Source: Christiangramia lutea
GTDB lineage: Bacteria; Bacteroidota; Bacteroidia; Flavobacteriales; Flavobacteriaceae
Reading direction: 5' to 3'
Assembly (NCBI RefSeq): GCF_022489035.1
Contig: NZ_JAKVTV010000001.1
Coordinates: 248,001-312,000, forward strand
DNA length: 64,000 bases
The notes under the pieces are model-generated. The model saw nothing but the letters and a program-made list of their open reading frames with translations. It was not told the origin of the DNA and did no database searches. Below are positions 49,992 through 62,314 of the stretch, piece by piece. The translations under genes were made by a program, and so were the position numbers. Position 1 is the first letter of the stretch. Each line of letters opens with the position of its first letter.

Positions 49992-51080
49992 CTAGCTAAT
50001 TCCATCCAGGATTTTCTGCTGATGATTAATCGATTCCTGGTGAATAGCCTTAAACATTCTTAAAACGAATTCTTCACTCAGGCCTTTAGATTCACCTTCC
50101 AGAACCATTTTTCCAAGGATTTCATTCCAGCGCTTTGTCTGCAAAATCGCCACGTTCTGATCTTTTTTCACTTTTCCAATTTCTTCTGCGATCTTCATTC
50201 TCTTTGAAAGGATCTCCAAGATCTGGCTATCGGTGATATCGATCTTTGATCTTAAGGTGCCTAATTTATTCTGAAATTCTTCACTTGCTGAAATTTCCTT
50301 TCTCACTTTTAAATCCTGCATGATCTGTATAAGTGTTTCAGGGGTTATTTGTTGCGCAGCATCGCTCCAGGCCTTATCTGGGGTATGGTGAGTTTCTACC
50401 ATCAATCCGTCGTAATTAAGATCGAGCGCAGTTTGACAAAGGTCGAAAATGATATCCCTTCTTCCCGCAATATGAGAAGGATCAAGTATTAGTGGAAGAT
50501 CTGGAAATTTGTTCTGAAGCTCGATTGGTATCTGCCATTCCGGGTTGTTCCTGTAACCGGTCTTTTCATAAGCTGAAAATCCACGGTGGATCACTCCTAA
50601 TTTATTGATATCAGCAGTATAAAGTCTTTCCACAGCACCTAACCATAAAGAAAGATCTGGATTTACAGGATTCTTCACCAAAACGATCTTATTTGTTCCT
50701 TTTAAAGCTTCCGCGATCTCCTGAACGATAAATGGAGAAACTGTAGTCCTTGCTCCTATCCAGAGAATATCAACATCATGTTTCAGAGCCAGGTCCACGT
50801 GATTTGGATTGGCAACCTCGGTAGTGGTTAGCATTCCGGTTTCCTCTTTCGCTTTCTGAAGCCATTTCAGTCCAAGGGCTCCAACACCTTCAAAATTACC
50901 CGGCCTGGTTCTGGGTTTCCAGATCCCGGCTCTTAGAACCGTAGCGTCACTATCTTTTAACTGGTGAGCGATTGTTAATACCTGTTCTTCTGTTTCGGCA
51001 CTGCAGGGTCCTGCAATTACCAGGGGATGTGACAATCCGAAATCATCCAACCATGTTCTGAGTTCTTTTTTATTTTCCAT
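49992..51080 (-). CDS. Bifunctional DAHP synthase / chorismate mutase
   Basis: 362 residues. Residues 1-260 are a type I-beta 3-deoxy-7-phosphoheptulonate synthase (HPLVIAGPCSAET, RAGIWKPRTRPGNFEG, HRGFSAYEKTGYRN, DPSHIAGRRD). The last 90 are an AroQ-type chorismate mutase (LRSKIDITDSQILEILSKRM, KIAEEIGKVKK). The fusion links the entry step of the shikimate pathway to the first step specific to Phe/Tyr. Last gene of the operon; starts 11 bp inside tyrA. Very likely under the control of the upstream pheA attenuator. Confidence 0.94.
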   Translation of the reverse strand: MENKKELRTWLDDFGLSHPLVIAGPCSAETEEQVLTIAHQLKDSDATVLRAGIWKPRTRPGNFEGVGALGLKWLQKAKEETGMLTTTEVANPNHVDLALKHDVDILWIGARTTVSPFIVQEIAEALKGTNKIVLVKNPVNPDLSLWLGAVERLYTADINKLGVIHRGFSAYEKTGYRNNPEWQIPIELQNKFPDLPLILDPSHIAGRRDIIFDLCQTALDLNYDGLMVETHHTPDKAWSDAAQQITPETLIQIMQDLKVRKEISASEEFQNKLGTLRSKIDITDSQILEILSKRMKIAEEIGKVKKDQNVAILQTKRWNEILGKMVLEGESKGLSEEFVLRMFKAIHQESINHQQKILDGIS

Positions 51081-51954
51081 TTTCCACTATTTTAAATTCG
51101 TCGTTTTGATTTATTCCGTTTAGTACTTCTCTAATATGGTTTGTTCTTTCCATTTCACTGAACACTTCTTCAAAATTGTCTTCTTCCATCAGTTTTCTGA
51201 AATGCTTCAAATTTGAAATATATTCATCCAGGGTTTCCATCACGTTCTTTTTATTAAGGCTGAAAATTGGAGTCCACATGGCCGGGGAACTTTTTGCCAG
51301 TCTTACGGTCGACTCAAATCCACTGCCGGCCAGGTCGAAAATATCCCTTTCGTTCTTCTCCTTTTCCAATACCGTTTTCCCAAGCATGAATGAACTGATA
51401 TGAGACAAATGAGAAACATATGCGATATGCCGGTCATGGGATACAGGATCCATATACCTAATTCTCATCCCAATTGCCTGAAAAATCTCCAATGCCCTTT
51501 CCTGAAGCTTAAATGCTGTTTTTTCTACCTCGCAGATGATATTGGTCTTATTTCTGAATAAGCCATGAATCGCCGCAGTAGGTCCTGAAAACTCTGTTCC
51601 CGAAATTGGGTGACCTGCCAGGAAATTTCTTCTTTTCGGATGATCTGCGATCCCTCTACATAAATGCTCTTTAGTAGAACCGGCATCTGTCACCACACAA
51701 TTATCGTTCACCTGGTCCAGTACCTTTGGTAAAACTTCCAGGGATGAATCCACGGGAATTGCCAGGTAGACCAGGTCTGCTTTATCAAGATCTTCAAAAT
51801 TCGCTTTATGATCTATCAATCCCAATTCCAGGGCTTTATCAAGATGATCCTCGCTTCTATCGATCCCGAAGACCTCGACCTTTTTCAAAACCGATTTCAG
51901 GTCCAGGGCGAAGGAGCCACCTATCAATCCTATACCAATTACAAATACTTTCAT
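51070..51954 (-). CDS. tyrA: Prephenate dehydrogenase
   Basis: 294 residues. N-terminal NAD(P)-binding GIGLIGGSFALDLK, Asp at the second strand (FGIDRSEDH), and the TyrA motifs AGHPISGTEFSGPTAAI and SHLSHISSFMLGK. Oxidatively decarboxylates prephenate to 4-hydroxyphenylpyruvate for Tyr. No ACT domain is fused. Overlaps both neighbours, so operonic with the aminotransferase and DAHP synthase. Confidence 0.94.
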   Translation of the reverse strand: MKVFVIGIGLIGGSFALDLKSVLKKVEVFGIDRSEDHLDKALELGLIDHKANFEDLDKADLVYLAIPVDSSLEVLPKVLDQVNDNCVVTDAGSTKEHLCRGIADHPKRRNFLAGHPISGTEFSGPTAAIHGLFRNKTNIICEVEKTAFKLQERALEIFQAIGMRIRYMDPVSHDRHIAYVSHLSHISSFMLGKTVLEKEKNERDIFDLAGSGFESTVRLAKSSPAMWTPIFSLNKKNVMETLDEYISNLKHFRKLMEEDNFEEVFSEMERTNHIREVLNGINQNDEFKIVENGK

Positions 51955-53096
51955 TTCTTAATTCTTTTTAAAGCTTCATCTATCACCTCTTCATTTGCGC
52001 AAAGAGAAAAGCGAACATAGCCCTCTCCCTGTGATCCAAAAATGAAACCTGGCGCAATAAATACATCTTTATTATAAAGCAAGTCATCCACTATATCTTC
52101 TGAAGTTTTCCCTGCAGGGGTCCTGGCCCAAACAAATAGCCCCACCTGATCTTCACTAACCTCACAGTTCAATGCTGAAACCAGTTCCAGAATTTTCTTT
52201 TTTCTTTCAGCATATATCTTGTTCTGCTCATTAAACCAGGAACCAGATAATTTAAGTGCTTCCACTGCTCCTGCCTGTACCGGGTAGAACATCCCGGAGT
52301 CCATATTCGATTTTACCTTTAAAACAGAATTGATATTCTTCTGACTTCCGGTAAGCATTCCTACTCTCCAGCCGGCCATATTGAAACTCTTGCTAAGGGA
52401 ATTCAATTCCATAACATAATCACTCAAGCCGTCTTTTTGAAGTATACTTTTTGGATTTTCATTCTGAATAAAACTGTAAGGATTATCATTTACCACCAGG
52501 ATATTATGCTTTTCAGCAAACTCTGTCAATTCGGCGAAAAAGCTTTCGGGGGCAACCGTTCCGGTAGGCATATGCGGATAATTTACCCACATTAATTTCA
52601 CTTTGCTAAGGTCTTCAGACGCAAGTTTTTCAAGATCTGGAAGCCAGTTATTTTCTGGCTTGAGTGCATAACTGCGTTCGGTAGCATCCAGCAGTTTACT
52701 TACCGAGCTATAAGTAGGATAACCCGGATTTGGTAATAAAACCTGATCTCCCGGGTTTAAAAAGGTCATGGAAATGTGCATGATCCCTTCTTTACTTCCC
52801 ATTAACGGAAGAATTTCAGATTCCGGGTCCAGTCGCAGCTTATAGAATTTTTTGTAAAACCCGGCAATGGCATGTCTTAATTCAGGAATTCCTTTATAAG
52901 GCTGATATTGATGTGCTCCATTAGAAGAAAGAGCTGAATTCAAGGCTTCCACCACTTCTTTTGGCGGAGCAAGATCTGGACTGCCAATTCCCAGATTTAT
53001 TATAGGTCTTCCTTTTTTTCTCAGCTCAGCAACTTCCCTTAGCTTCTGCGAAAAGTAGTATTCCTGAACGGTATCAAGTCTTTTTGCCGTTATCAT
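51951..53096 (-). CDS. PLP-dependent aminotransferase (class I/II, aspartate/aromatic)
   Basis: 381 residues. PLP fold features: INLGIGSPDLAPPKEV, PNPGYPTYSS, WVNYPHMPTGTVA, NSLSKSFNMAGWRVGM (Lys for the Schiff base) and RFSLCANEEVIDEAL. Position between pheA and tyrA, with 4-bp overlaps on both sides, implies transamination of phenylpyruvate/4-hydroxyphenylpyruvate (or prephenate). Specificity inferred from context. Confidence 0.9.
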   Translation of the reverse strand: MITAKRLDTVQEYYFSQKLREVAELRKKGRPIINLGIGSPDLAPPKEVVEALNSALSSNGAHQYQPYKGIPELRHAIAGFYKKFYKLRLDPESEILPLMGSKEGIMHISMTFLNPGDQVLLPNPGYPTYSSVSKLLDATERSYALKPENNWLPDLEKLASEDLSKVKLMWVNYPHMPTGTVAPESFFAELTEFAEKHNILVVNDNPYSFIQNENPKSILQKDGLSDYVMELNSLSKSFNMAGWRVGMLTGSQKNINSVLKVKSNMDSGMFYPVQAGAVEALKLSGSWFNEQNKIYAERKKKILELVSALNCEVSEDQVGLFVWARTPAGKTSEDIVDDLLYNKDVFIAPGFIFGSQGEGYVRFSLCANEEVIDEALKRIKK

Positions 53097-53920
53097 ACCA
53101 GATTATTTTTATAGACACCCAGGACTTTTAATTCCTCGGTCATTAATTTTAAAACGTCAATTGCCTTTTCAAAATCTTCATGCCTTTCGAAGACCACATC
53201 AACAAAAAATGAATATTTCCAGGGTTCGTCGATAATAGGAAGCGACTGTATCTTGGTCATATCAAGGTAACAGTCCCTTAAAATATTCAATACTGAAACC
53301 AGGCTTCCCCGCTCACTTTTTAGATCGAACTTAAGAGATGCCTTATCCAGTTTTTCTCCGTTCGGTTTCTGCCTTTCAGTTCCCAGGATCAAAAACCTGG
53401 TAGCATTACTTTTTATAGTATGAATCTCTTTAGCAAGAATTTCCAGGCCATATAATTCTGCCGCTGCCGGACTCGCCACCGCGGCGACTTTCATCTTTCC
53501 TTCTCTGGCTATCCTTTTGGCAGCCTCGGCCGTATCAGCATCTTCAATTAGTTTGATATGAGGATGTTTTTTAAAGAATTCCTTGCACTGCAGCAAGGCC
53601 ATGGGATGGGAAAAGACCTTCTTAATATCCTCTATCTTCTGCCCTTTCAAAGCCATCAGGTTCATATTCACCGGGGTATAATACTCCCCAACAATGCTCA
53701 ACCCATATTCATTGATTAACGCATAATTAGGCAGGATGGAACCGGCGATACTATTTTCGATAGCCATAACCGCTACATCGGTTTCTTTCGCGGCAAGCTT
53801 CTGGGCCAGTTCATGGAAAGACATATGTTCCATCACATCTATGCCTCTATGGTAGTAATCCATCGCTACCAGATGATGGAAAGAACCTTTAATACCCTGA
53901 ATTCCGACTTTTTTATTCAT
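53093..53920 (-). CDS. pheA: Prephenate dehydratase
   Basis: 275 residues. Family features: GIQGIKGSFHHLVAMDYY, MAIENSIAGSILPNYALI, HPMALLQCKEFF, and NATRFLILG (Thr/Arg/Phe active-site motif). A C-terminal ACT domain (ERGSLVSVLNILRDCYLDMTKIQSLP) should allow Phe feedback inhibition. First structural gene of a four-gene aromatic amino acid operon. Its ATG is only about 12 nt after the T-run of an attenuator terminator, which together with the leader peptide indicates transcriptional regulation by Phe/Tyr supply. Confidence 0.94.
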   Translation of the reverse strand: MNKKVGIQGIKGSFHHLVAMDYYHRGIDVMEHMSFHELAQKLAAKETDVAVMAIENSIAGSILPNYALINEYGLSIVGEYYTPVNMNLMALKGQKIEDIKKVFSHPMALLQCKEFFKKHPHIKLIEDADTAEAAKRIAREGKMKVAAVASPAAAELYGLEILAKEIHTIKSNATRFLILGTERQKPNGEKLDKASLKFDLKSERGSLVSVLNILRDCYLDMTKIQSLPIIDEPWKYSFFVDVVFERHEDFEKAIDVLKLMTEELKVLGVYKNNLV

Positions 53921-53932
53921 ATAGCTATCAAT

Positions 53933-53964
53933 AAAAAAAGTCCCGATCTTAGATCGAGACTTTT
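53933..53964 (-). terminator. Attenuator terminator upstream of pheA
   Basis: In the - strand RNA a 13-bp stem with one G-U pair (arms 53952-53964 and 53936-53948, loop UAA) is followed by UUUUUUU that ends just before pheA. This is an intrinsic terminator in the leader, not after a gene. Confidence 0.85.
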
Positions 53965-53986
53965 ATATAATTTTATGTTTAGTTAA

Positions 53987-54064
53987 TCATATAGCATTCC
54001 CGATCCTATCTCTGGTATAGAAATAAAAATAATAGAATGCGTTCCAGTTGATTAAGCTTGTCAT
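53987..54064 (-). CDS. pheA leader peptide with seven Phe/Tyr codons
   Basis: A 25-residue frame too short for routine ORF calling: MTSLINWNAF, then YYFYFY, then TRDRIGNAI and stop TGA. Codons 10-16 (54017-54037) are all Phe or Tyr (F-Y-Y-F-Y-F-Y). Ribosomes stalled there for lack of charged tRNA-Phe/Tyr leave bases 53998-54005 (GATCGGGA in the RNA) free to pair with the 5' arm of the terminator (53952-53959), 8 bp with one G-U. That would prevent the terminator. When translation continues to the stop the segment is masked and transcription ends. Strong attenuator signature; not experimentally shown here. Confidence 0.88.
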   Translation of the reverse strand: MTSLINWNAFYYFYFYTRDRIGNAI

Positions 54065-54083
54065 TTCGATAATTAATGAATGA

Positions 54084-54113
54084 CTAAAGTAGTGTTTAAA
54101 TTTTATTTTCAAA
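54084..54113 (-). promoter_or_regulatory. Candidate promoter of the pheA leader
   Basis: TTTG (54110-54113) and TACTTTAG (54084-54091), 18 bp apart, resemble the -33/-7 boxes with one mismatch in the -7. The expected start near 54077 lies shortly before the leader peptide ATG. Confidence 0.45.
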
Positions 54114-54131
54114 ATATTTTATCTTCAAAAT
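54100..54131. repeat. Two adjacent 16-bp direct repeats
   Basis: 54100-54115 and 54116-54131 are identical except for one base (pattern ATTTTATYTTCAAAAT). They cover the -33 region of the pheA leader promoter and extend upstream, so they may be operator half-sites or a simple duplication. Confidence 0.8.
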
Positions 54132-54249
54132 TTATATTTTTTTGAAATTCAGAAAATACCAGAGGTTTTAATATTGAATACAATTTATCCTACATCTAAT
54201 CCGTTGAAATTTTGAATTATTTTCAGTGACCTGCCTGATTAATTATTCC

Positions 54250-54257
54250 TAATTTTG
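54250..54257 (+). promoter_or_regulatory. -7 box of gldA
   Basis: TAATTTTG, a perfect TAnnTTTG match, ends 11 bp before the gldA ATG; a -33 box is not clear. Confidence 0.5.
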
Positions 54258-54268
54258 AAATTGAGCTT

Positions 54269-55189
54269 ATGTCTATATCAGTTAATAACATATCTAAGCA
54301 CTTCGGAAGCCAGAAAGCACTGGATGAAGTTAGTTTTAAAATTTCTCCGGGTGAGATCGTTGGGTTCCTGGGACCAAACGGTGCAGGTAAATCTACCTTG
54401 ATGAAAATACTCACCGGTTATCTTCAGCCCGATGAAGGAACTGCTGAAGTTAGTGGGTTTAACCTGACCAATCAGATTGCTGAAATTCAGGCACAGATAG
54501 GCTACCTGCCCGAGCATAACCCTCTATATACTGAAATGTTCGTTAGAGAATATCTAAGATTCAATGCTTCGGTATATAAAATGAATAAGTCCAGAGTAGA
54601 AGAAGTCATCAAACTTACCGGTCTTAGCCCTGAAGCAAATAAAAAGATAGACCAGCTTTCCAAAGGTTATCGCCAACGCGTTGGACTAGCTGCAGCACTT
54701 TTGCATGATCCGGCGGTATTGATCCTTGATGAACCCACCACGGGGCTTGATCCGAATCAACTGGTGGAAATAAGGTCCCTAATCAGGAATATTGGAAAAG
54801 ATCAACCTGATGGACGACCCGGTAAGACGGTATTTCTTTCTACCCATATTATGCAGGAAGTAGAGGCGATCTGTGACCGTGTTATCATCATAAATAAAGG
54901 TAAAATTGTTGCCGATAGAAAGCTTAAAGACCTTCGCGAGGAGAATGAACAGGTGATTTTCGTAGAATTCGATTACCGCATCGAGGAGATCGCCCTTCAG
55001 GAAATTCCAAATCTGGTTTCGGCAAAAAATACCGGCGGATTCTCCTATGAACTGGTTTTCGATTCAAAAAAAGATATGCGCCCTGCTGTTTTTGATTTCG
55101 CCCACGATAATGGATTGAAAACACTTCAGCTCAATCAGAAAACCAAAAACCTGGAAAGCCTTTTTGCTGAATTGACCTCCACTAGATAA
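54269..55189 (+). CDS. gldA: Gliding motility ABC transporter ATP-binding subunit GldA
   Basis: 306 residues. Walker A GPNGAGKST, Q-loop region (IGYLPEHNPLYTEM), signature LSKGYRQRVG, Walker B LILDEPTTGLDP and H-loop STHIM. The C-terminal extension and the YLPEHNPLY motif match GldA of Bacteroidota, which works with GldF/GldG in gliding motility and possibly type IX-related functions. GldF/GldG are not adjacent here. Divergent from the pheA leader. Confidence 0.86.
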   Translation: MSISVNNISKHFGSQKALDEVSFKISPGEIVGFLGPNGAGKSTLMKILTGYLQPDEGTAEVSGFNLTNQIAEIQAQIGYLPEHNPLYTEMFVREYLRFNASVYKMNKSRVEEVIKLTGLSPEANKKIDQLSKGYRQRVGLAAALLHDPAVLILDEPTTGLDPNQLVEIRSLIRNIGKDQPDGRPGKTVFLSTHIMQEVEAICDRVIIINKGKIVADRKLKDLREENEQVIFVEFDYRIEEIALQEIPNLVSAKNTGGFSYELVFDSKKDMRPAVFDFAHDNGLKTLQLNQKTKNLESLFAELTSTR

Positions 55190-58316: not shown

Positions 58317-61028
58317 CTAATCTGCAATATTCGGATTCAGCCATTTCTCAGCCTTCTCCAAACTGATATCCTTTCGTTCCGCATAATCCTTTACCTGGTC
58401 TTCCTTTATTTTTCCAAGTCCGAAATACCTGGCTTCCGGATTCGCAAAATAATAACCACTTACACTGGCGGCTGGCCACATGGCCAGGCTTTCGGTAAGC
58501 TCTACTCCTATTCTTTCTTTTACTTTAAGAATATCCCAAATGGTCAATTTTTCCAGATGATCTGGACAGGCCGGATAACCTGGAGCCGGACGAATTCCTT
58601 TGTAGGCTTCCTTAATCAACTCTTCATTACTCAAACTTTCATCTGAAGCATAACCCCAATGTTGCGTTCTCACCTCCTTATGAAGAAATTCAGCAAAAGC
58701 TTCTGCCAGACGATCGGCAAGCGCTTTGATCATAATTGAATTATAATCGTCATGATTTTTCTCAAATTTCGCTGCCAATTCCTGGGTTCCAAATCCGGTA
58801 GTCACGCAAAAACAACCTATATGATCCTGGATGCCGGTTTCTTTTGGTGCAATAAAATCTGAAAGGGCAAAATTGGGCTGATCGTCGTGTTTCTTTAGTT
58901 GCTGCCTAAGTGTCCTGAAAATCGCTGTTTTCTCCGTAGATTCTACCTGATATTTTACTTCGATATCATCATGATTGATCGTATTTGCTTCGAACAATCC
59001 AAAGATCGCTTTCGCCTTCAGTAACTTTTCATCCAGAATTCGCTGAAGTAAAACCTGTGCATCGTCAAATAAGATCTGTGCCTGCTCGCCTACGTTCTCG
59101 TCCTTCAGAATATCCGGATATCTGCCATGCAGATCCCAGCTTCTAAAAAACGGACTCCAGTCTATATAATCAACCAGTTTATTCAGGTCAAAATCCTCGA
59201 TCACCTGGATTCCTAATTCAGCAGGCCTAGTGATCTGTGTATTTTTCCAATCGATCTGAAATTTATTTTTCCGGGCTTCCTCGATACTCAGGAAAGACTT
59301 GATCTTACTTCTTTTTCCAAAATTCTTTCGGAATTCGTCATACTGAACCTTTAGCTCGTTCTTATATTTCTCCCTGGTGCTTTCCTTTAAAAGATCACCA
59401 ACTACGGTTACCGCCCGGGATGCATCATTTACATGCGCCACCGCATGTTTATATTGCGGATCGATCTTCACCGCCGTATGTGCTTTGGAAGTGGTTGCGC
59501 CACCAATTAAAAGGGGAACAGAAAAATCCTGACGCTGCATTTCCTTGGCCAGGAAAACCATCTCATCCAATGACGGAGTAATTAGTCCGCTAAGGCCTAT
59601 CACATCCACATTCTCTTTTTTGGCAGTTTCAATGATCTTTTCCGGCGGCACCATCACCCCAAGGTCAATGATCTCATAATTATTACATCCAAGTACTACG
59701 CTCACGATATTTTTACCAATATCATGCACATCACCTTTTACTGTGGCCATCAATACTTTCCCTGCCGATTGTCTTTTATTCGATTTATCAGCTTCGATAT
59801 ATGGTAACAAATGTGCCACGGCCTTTTTCATTACCCTTGCCGACTTCACCACCTGTGGCAGGAACATTTTCCCGCTTCCAAAGAGATCACCAACCACGTT
59901 CATTCCTATCATAAGCGGACCTTCGATCACATCCAGCGGTTTTTCAGATTCTATACGGGCCTGCTCGATATCTTCCAGAATATAGGCGTCGATTCCTTTT
60001 ACAAGTGCATGGGTGATCCTTTCCTGCAACTGATTTTCCCTCCAGGATAGATCAACTTTATTTTCTTTTTTAGTCCCTACAACATTTTCTGCAAAAGCCA
60101 GTAAACGCTCGGTAGCGTCATCACGACGATCCAGGATCACATCTTCCACATGCTCCAGCAGATCTTTCGGGATCTCATCATAAACTTCCAGCATGGAAGG
60201 ATTCACGATCCCAATGTTCATCCCTGCTTTGATGGCATGAAAGAGGAATACGGAATGCATAGCTTCCCGTACCGGATTATTTCCTCTGAAAGAAAAGGAA
60301 ACATTGCTTACACCACCGCTAATACTACAATGCGGTAGATTCTCTTTTACCCAACGTGTTCCTTCAATAAAATCTATCGCATTTCTCCTATGCTCGTCCA
60401 TTCCTGTACCAACCGGAAAAATATTAAGGTCAAAAATGATATCCTCAGGAGGGAATTTCACTTGATTGACCAAAATATCATAAGACCTTTTTGCGATCTC
60501 AATTCGTCTCTCATAATTATCTGCCTGGCCAACCTCATCAAATGCCATTACGATCACAGCCGCTCCATAACGCCTGATCTTTTTCGCATGACTTATAAAT
60601 TCTTCTTCCCCTTCCTTTAAACTGATAGAATTCACTACACATTTTCCCTGCACCACTTGCAGACCAGCTTCAATAATTTCCCATTTGGAACTATCTATCA
60701 TGATAGGAACCCTGGCAATATCAGGTTCTGCCACTACGAGATTCAGGAATTTAACCATGGCTTCCTTGCCTTCAATAAGGCCGTCATCCATATTCACATC
60801 AATGATCTGCGCTCCATTTTCTACCTGTTCCCTGGCAACTTCAAGAGCCTCATCATATTTCTCCTCCTTGATCAATCGCAAAAATTTGCGGGAGCCGGCC
60901 ACGTTGGTTCGTTCCCCAACATTTATGAAATTGCTTTCAGGAGTGATCACCAGAGGTTCCAGTCCAGATAATTTTAAGGGTCTGATCTCCTTTTGCTTAT
61001 CAACTATATCTGTACTTGCTGTACTCAT
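58317..61028 (-). CDS. metH: Methionine synthase, folate/B12/AdoMet-activation part
   Basis: 903 residues, lacking the homocysteine domain, which is the next gene upstream. Pterin-binding domain ([32 protein letters not shown]), helical cap, B12-binding GDVHDIGKN with His435 as the lower cobalt ligand, and the C-terminal AdoMet activation domain ([17 protein letters not shown]). Cytosolic; transfers methyl from methyl-THF through cobalamin. Both halves have full ends, so this is a split gene, not a frameshift. Controlled by the SAM-I riboswitch upstream. Confidence 0.95.
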
Positions 61029-62134: not shown

Positions 62135-62186
62135 GATCTTGTAAATAAATCGCTATCAAAAAAGGAAGACAAAAATGAAGTCTAAT

Positions 62187-62286
62187 GTTATCTATCCACG
62201 CCAGGGCGCAGTAGAATGTAGCACCTTCTCCAAAGGAGGGTTGCTAAGGTTTCACAGGGTCTAATCCCTCAACCTTTCTTGATAAC
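62187..62286 (-). ncRNA. SAM-I (S-box) riboswitch
   Basis: On the - strand: P1 GTTATC with distal GATAAC, then the conserved AAGAAAGG, GAGGGAUUAGACCCU, GUGAAACCUUAGCAACC and GAAGGUGCUACAUUC. These are the hallmark S-box core sequences that bind S-adenosylmethionine. It lies upstream of the split metH genes, so high SAM should lower methionine synthesis. A weak AGAC/GTCT stem before a T6 run (about 62155-62183) may be the expression platform. Confidence 0.88.
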
Positions 62287-62314
62287 GAAAGTTGTAAACA
62301 ATGAACTTATTGCG

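Follow-up and report, generated by a model that had tools for sequence, protein, structure and literature searches.

A conserved leader reading frame with Phe and Tyr codons marks a probable ribosome-mediated transcription attenuator upstream of pheA in Christiangramia lutea and other Bacteroidia

Introduction

Does the short open reading frame in front of pheA in Christiangramia lutea, with its seven consecutive aromatic codons, belong to an attenuator through which a translating ribosome controls the transcription of an aromatic amino-acid operon? This reading was proposed in an initial annotation of a 64,000-nt stretch of the genome (contig NZ_JAKVTV010000001.1, positions 248,001-312,000), which is referred to here as the window and whose numbering is used for all coordinates. 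The classical enterobacterial examples, pheL and trpL, combine control codons in a leader, an antiterminator (2:3), a terminator (3:4), a 1:2 pairing and a stop codon near segment 2. According to PMC2965389, leader-peptide systems had, to its authors' knowledge, previously been shown only in Proteobacteria and Actinobacteria, ermC aside. For Bacteroidota, ribosome-mediated attenuation receives only brief mentions in the literature searched: PMC9723704 (2021) reports a structured 5' element before pheA in Flavobacterium psychrophilum, present in other Flavobacteriaceae genera, a further structured 5' element before hisG, both without Rfam hits, and strong clues for leader-peptide attenuation before amino-acid operons of F. 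psychrophilum; PMC7366714 mentions sORFs that recall leader peptides in Bacteroides thetaiotaomicron; and PMC4833913 surveys leader genes, Bacteroidetes included, for another question. Among the literature matches listed, which comprised titles and abstract openings outside subscription papers, none described the sequence of this pheA leader.

Organisation of the locus

The features of the locus, in order along the window, are as follows.

49992-51080, minus strand: DAHP synthase fused to chorismate mutase (both domains matched, below curated cut-offs)
51070-51954, minus strand: tyrA, prephenate dehydrogenase (NF006307 above its cut-off)
51951-53096, minus strand: PLP-dependent aminotransferase, presumed aromatic (family only, below cut-offs; substrate deduced from the operon)
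53093-53920, minus strand: pheA, prephenate dehydratase (best NCBIfam models are prephenate dehydratases, below curated cut-offs)
53933-53939, minus strand: T run (T7) of the intrinsic terminator (read from the sequence)
53936-53948, minus strand: segment 4, the terminator 3' arm (compensatory changes in the alignment)
53952-53964, minus strand: segment 3, the terminator 5' arm (can pair with segment 2 or segment 4)
53987-54064, minus strand: leader ORF of 25 codons, MTSLINWNAFYYFYFYTRDRIGNAI (ATG 54064-54062, TGA 53989-53987)
53998-54005, minus strand: segment 2, the antiterminator strand GATCGGGA (pairs with TCTCGATC)
54017-54037, minus strand: control codons, seven consecutive Phe/Tyr codons FYYFYFY (read from the sequence and the alignment)
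54044-54046, minus strand: Trp codon of the leader, preceding the aromatic run (read from the sequence)
54084-54113, minus strand: candidate promoter, TTTG (54113-54110), 18-nt spacer, TACTTTAG (54091-54084) (pattern match)

The 25-codon leader frame and its FYYFYFY run (54037-54017) lie base for base at the coordinates given in the initial annotation, and the two structural elements described there were reproduced. Every base of the segment GATCGGGA pairs, in one case as G-U, with TCTCGATC in the terminator 5' arm, and the terminator (53952-53964 / 53936-53948, then U7), which had been placed about 12 nt before the start of pheA, has its T run ending 12 nt before the pheA ATG (53920). Its arms (53964-53952 / 53948-53936) form 13 pairs, five of them G-C, around a loop of 3, and four of the seven U fall inside the counted 13-pair stem. 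The antiterminator segment is located within the leader frame, 11 nt past the aromatic run. A folding z-score of -5.98 was obtained for the 150-nt stretch 53921-54070, and none of 200 shuffles folded as well. The next upstream gene, gldA, is divergent from the pheA operon, so the terminator closes or serves no upstream gene. What had been called a pheA-tyrA aromatic operon does contain both genes, and is amended here to four genes, with the DAHP synthase/chorismate mutase fusion as the last; tyrA is the only one of the four above a curated cut-off, the others being named from their best models.

Conservation in named relatives and chance controls

A scan of named relatives, from Christiangramia to Polaribacter and Flavobacterium, found 152, of which the best 80 were kept. 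The gene order pheA-aminotransferase-tyrA-DAHP synthase was present in 76 of these best 80, one or both of the last genes not being seen in the other four, and gldA was present on the opposite strand in 61. Conservation of the leader frame and aromatic run had been named as a check in the initial annotation, and both are kept: leader, terminator and pairing segment were found within 400 nt upstream in 77 of the 80 best named relatives. Among the remaining three, L064 has the leader and terminator farther out, with the stop at -461, and L023 and L048 are interrupted by contig ends; in L023 the run, segment 2 and terminator are still visible and only the cut 5' end is missing, and in L048 the run lies beyond the contig end and the visible sequence begins with the last part of the leader. 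Segment 2 was counted in relatives as any helix of at least 5 pairs and its presence alone is therefore weak evidence, the weight being carried by its spacing and by the permutation described below.

The combination of leader and terminator was called by the detector in 77 of 78 full-length regions (the window and 77 relatives), in none of the 78 reverse complements and in none of 780 shuffles. In this AT-rich DNA the leader frame alone was frequent by chance (11/78 reverse complements, 100/780 shuffles). When the 400-nt region upstream of pheA in the window was subjected to 2000 dinucleotide shuffles, 122 contained a leader frame in which 5 or more of 8 codons were aromatic, and none contained one with 7 or more, or a leader with a terminator.

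Competing pairings and the position of the ribosome

Covariation was assessed in an alignment of 33 sequences (the window and 32 relatives) out of 75 distinct ones, the other lineages being left out. In the terminator stem, 5 of 10 pairs had changed on both sides and 94.8% of cells were paired, and either value was reached in 0 of 500 shuffles; the number of pair types in these 33 sequences was not above the shuffles, 449 of 500 being as high. For the 2:3 helix, 91.7% of cells were paired in the aligned clade as against 16-59% for slid versions, with no two-sided changes in the 33-sequence alignment and with shuffles performing as well (91.8% vs 91.7%). Since the aligned clade has no two-sided changes and its shuffle control is unsupportive, covariation of the 2:3 helix rests on a permutation across lineages. 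For this purpose, 39 representatives with distinct arms, one per arm, were taken from 115 items, yielding a mean score of 11.7 for each sequence with its own arm vs 8.4 (sd 0.36) for permuted arms, with none of 10,000 permutations as high. A cruder cross-lineage comparison was weaker: a foreign arm was as good in 14.7% of cases, and L103, L104 and L114, which show weak 2:3 pairing in the class- and order-level set, fitted their own arm no better than a foreign one. In some loci the cruder comparison had set the run end wrongly; a wider gap rule was used in the permutation. Under the wider run-end rule, all 78 leaders have segment 2 starting 7-13 nt past their last aromatic codon, and a distance of 7-13 nt is approximately the forward reach of a ribosome. 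The competing pairings hold across lineages, and the comparison supports the attenuator reading.

Stalling was simulated by removing the RNA up to the front edge of the ribosome, with an assumed footprint of 14 nt, and by ending the transcript before segment 4. In all 78 leaders the predicted probability of 2:3 pairing, P(2:3), averaged 0.7 or more over the scored aromatic codons and did not exceed 0.05 once the ribosome stood at the stop codon. For the window, simulated P(2:3) was 0.99 at each codon of the run, then 0.61 and 0.11, and 0 afterwards. The switch point fell 0-2 codons past the last aromatic codon in 68 of 78 rows and 9-10 codons past it in 10 rows, in which, judged by eye, the rule had ended the run early so that only its early part was scored. 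Footprints of 10 to 18 nt moved the main switch offsets from +3 to -1 codons, one row having no switch at 10 nt. With no ribosome on the window transcript, cut before segment 4, P(2:3) was 0.98; as 2:3 is already favoured without a ribosome, basal termination would depend on translation of the leader or on kinetic folding of 1:2. Such a protector is predicted in 69 of 74 distinct leaders, where segment 2 pairs upstream with a probability of at least 0.5.

Control codons and the identity of the signal

An attenuator of this geometry need not respond to aromatic supply: the ribosome might instead be stalled by a general slowing of translation, in the manner of antibiotic-sensing leader ORFs. This is considered improbable, because an aromatic run is found in every one of the 78 leaders analysed within 400 nt, because Phe and Tyr swap only with each other in the aligned clade, where each of the seven codons is TTT, TTC, TAT or TAC in 33 sequences (the window and 32 relatives), and because the leaders before hisG, trpE and ilvD in this genome carry His, Trp or Ile codons.

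Conservation of the leader C-terminus, RDRIGNAI, in close relatives might instead point to a small functional peptide with an unrelated hairpin beside it. However, this stretch contains the antiterminator strand, and elsewhere in the family its residues change along with a different segment 2; moreover, Phe and Tyr interchange within the run, and the divergent orientation of gldA leaves no upstream gene that would need a terminator. The run stays aromatic while the sequence of Phe and Tyr within it varies, a pattern that is better explained by sensing of both amino acids than by a functional peptide, and we regard the peptide reading as highly improbable.

A Trp codon is present in 65 of the 78 leaders and absent from 13, counts that are taken over related sequences, and 64 of 67 leader Trp codons occupy positions at which a simulated stall would free segment 2. 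Outside the family the Trp codon is, by eye, less regular. As the operon carries DAHP synthase, an input from Trp is plausible, if unproven, and the leader may sense Trp in addition to Phe and Tyr.

Candidate promoter

Bacteroidota promoters are of the -33/-7 type. The strict promoter box TANNTTTG was present in just 19 of 78 leaders, and the box TANNTT[TA]G, a pattern relaxed after the sequences had been inspected, occurred in 75 of 78 within the 70 nt that precede the leader ATG, as compared with 7.7 expected from mononucleotide shuffles. From these sequences, the -7 element apparently tolerates A as its seventh base. The box is mostly located 18-31 nt before the leader ATG, the copy in the window being at 54084-54091.

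Comparison with RNA families

A terminator and antiterminator at the 5' end of an amino-acid operon would also be expected of a T-box or a metabolite riboswitch. Neither was among the 14 Rfam matches obtained at E up to 10 in 53600-54300, and there were none here at gathering scores; the leader with its cognate codons accounts for the sequence, and a T-box or riboswitch is judged extremely improbable.

The Rfam family Phe_leader (RF01859) gave 30 bits at the locus against a gathering cut-off of 55, and the element is therefore not a member; the RF01859 cut-off was reached in 0 of 198 phylum genomes. A score of 30 bits is not discriminating, as unrelated families were similar on the same stretch (L10_leader with 28.2 bits, RsaJ with a better E-value) and as weak RF01859 matches (E up to 1) were obtained in 178 of 198 phylum genomes, with 13 such matches in the genome of the window alone, and also in 9 of 14 control genomes. 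Membership was rejected and the match given no weight for these reasons. One weak RF01859 match, in genome G088, is located directly upstream of the pheA match of that genome.

Proposed mechanism and relation to known attenuators

We assign a probability of about 0.9 to the reading of the element before pheA as a ribosome-mediated transcription attenuator. Sequence and comparison establish the leader with its conserved aromatic codons, the terminator, the 2:3 pairing that competes with it, and the spacing of these parts. In the mechanism that we infer, which further requires that the region is transcribed, that the leader is translated in step with the polymerase and that Phe/Tyr supply is sensed, RNA polymerase would start just upstream of the leader and a ribosome would begin on it. 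If Phe-tRNA or Tyr-tRNA were short, the ribosome would stall in the aromatic run and cover segment 1, leaving segment 2 free to pair with segment 3 before segment 4 is made; no terminator would then form, and pheA, the aminotransferase gene, tyrA and the DAHP synthase gene would be transcribed. If Phe and Tyr were plentiful, the ribosome would reach the stop codon and cover segment 2, and segments 3 and 4 would form the terminator 12 nt before pheA. To our knowledge, close ribosome-polymerase coupling has not been established for Bacteroidota. The pheA leader offers a clean case in which ribosome-mediated attenuation can be tested in Bacteroidota. If the model is true, the first ribosome on a transcript must keep close behind RNA polymerase in this group, on leaders at any rate.

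With the enterobacterial pheA (pheL) and trp (trpL) systems the element shares a leader ORF with control codons, a 2:3 antiterminator, a 3:4 terminator, a predicted 1:2 protector and a stop codon near segment 2. Unlike them, it is found in Bacteroidota, has a mixed Phe/Tyr run, often with a Trp codon, precedes a four-gene operon with tyrA and DAHP synthase, and scores below the RF01859 cut-off. The Actinobacteria leaders and Bacillus hisS (PMC2965389) likewise have a short ORF with cognate codons and premature termination, whereas the genes and phyla differ. The 5' element before pheA of F. psychrophilum (PMC9723704) has the same position in the same bacterial family, and we infer that it is the same element, although the section of that paper on it names neither a leader sequence nor a mechanism specifically for pheA. 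On comparative grounds, the pheA leader is best described as a genuine, conserved Phe/Tyr attenuator of a kind long known from other bacteria and partly anticipated in print.

Distribution in the class Bacteroidia

At the class level 42 of 159 genomes had a PheA homologue (E up to 1e-10), and at the order level 46 of 99 did; 71 of 82 non-own upstream regions were compared at these levels. An aromatic leader frame was detected in 47 of the 71 (93 of 710 shuffles) and a leader together with a terminator in 37 (0 of 710 shuffles), 11 of these 37 loci belonging to the family of the window and 26 to 16 other families. No leader was found in 24 of the 71 regions, and another 10 had a leader frame without a terminator; the leader is doubtful in L123 of this set. 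No leader was detected in any of the 8 members of family f2, which have a distant PheA, or in any of the 5 members of f50, and a leader with terminator was not found upstream of pheA in the three small genomes of family f109 (L146, L147 and L148; 600-kb). These small genomes, which keep pheA, are possibly those of host-provisioning symbionts that have lost the control. By these sequence comparisons, the attenuator system is widespread in the class Bacteroidia and not universal there. A single leader might monitor all three aromatic amino acids, with the run reporting on Phe and Tyr and the early TGG codon on Trp, in keeping with an operon whose DAHP synthase serves all of them, in a type of system that is spread through Bacteroidia and may be ancestral there, its leader and hairpin core drifting together; this extended proposal is tentative and, taken as a whole, rather unlikely.

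Other leaders in the genome

Upstream of hisG (L153, G000:C12), the leader MRKNTVHHHHFYIHAQAR, read from an inner ATG, has four His codons in a row and is followed by a terminator starting 56 nt before hisG, making it a likely his attenuator. The leader MFLMKRNNWWWNYLRQNS upstream of trpE (L155, G000:C26) contains WWW and is followed by a terminator starting 50 nt before trpE, which makes it a likely trp attenuator. An Ile-rich leader, MITAIQNIIVSIIEVIFIIENRP, precedes ilvD (L154, G000:C23), with a terminator starting 217 nt before that gene. Segments complementary to the terminator arms are located 14 and 20 nt past the runs of the his and trp leaders, and the ilv match is weaker, these matches carrying no chance control. 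A matching leader with terminator was not found in up to 420 nt upstream of pheS, a second chorismate-using gene, two HMGL-family (leuA-like) genes and two homoserine dehydrogenase genes. The occurrence of the pheA, hisG, trpE and ilvD leaders in one genome suggests that several amino-acid operons of the group are controlled in this way, and such control would run through short genes that the Rfam scan of the window did not call.

Two further observations were made. An TATATTTG box is located a few bases before the ATG of the trpE leader, so near that the mRNA may carry hardly any 5' UTR ahead of this leader. Within the window, a SAM riboswitch (RF00162, 80.4 bits) lies at 62185-62288 on the minus strand, upstream of an apparent methionine synthase gene (58317-61028, by eye).
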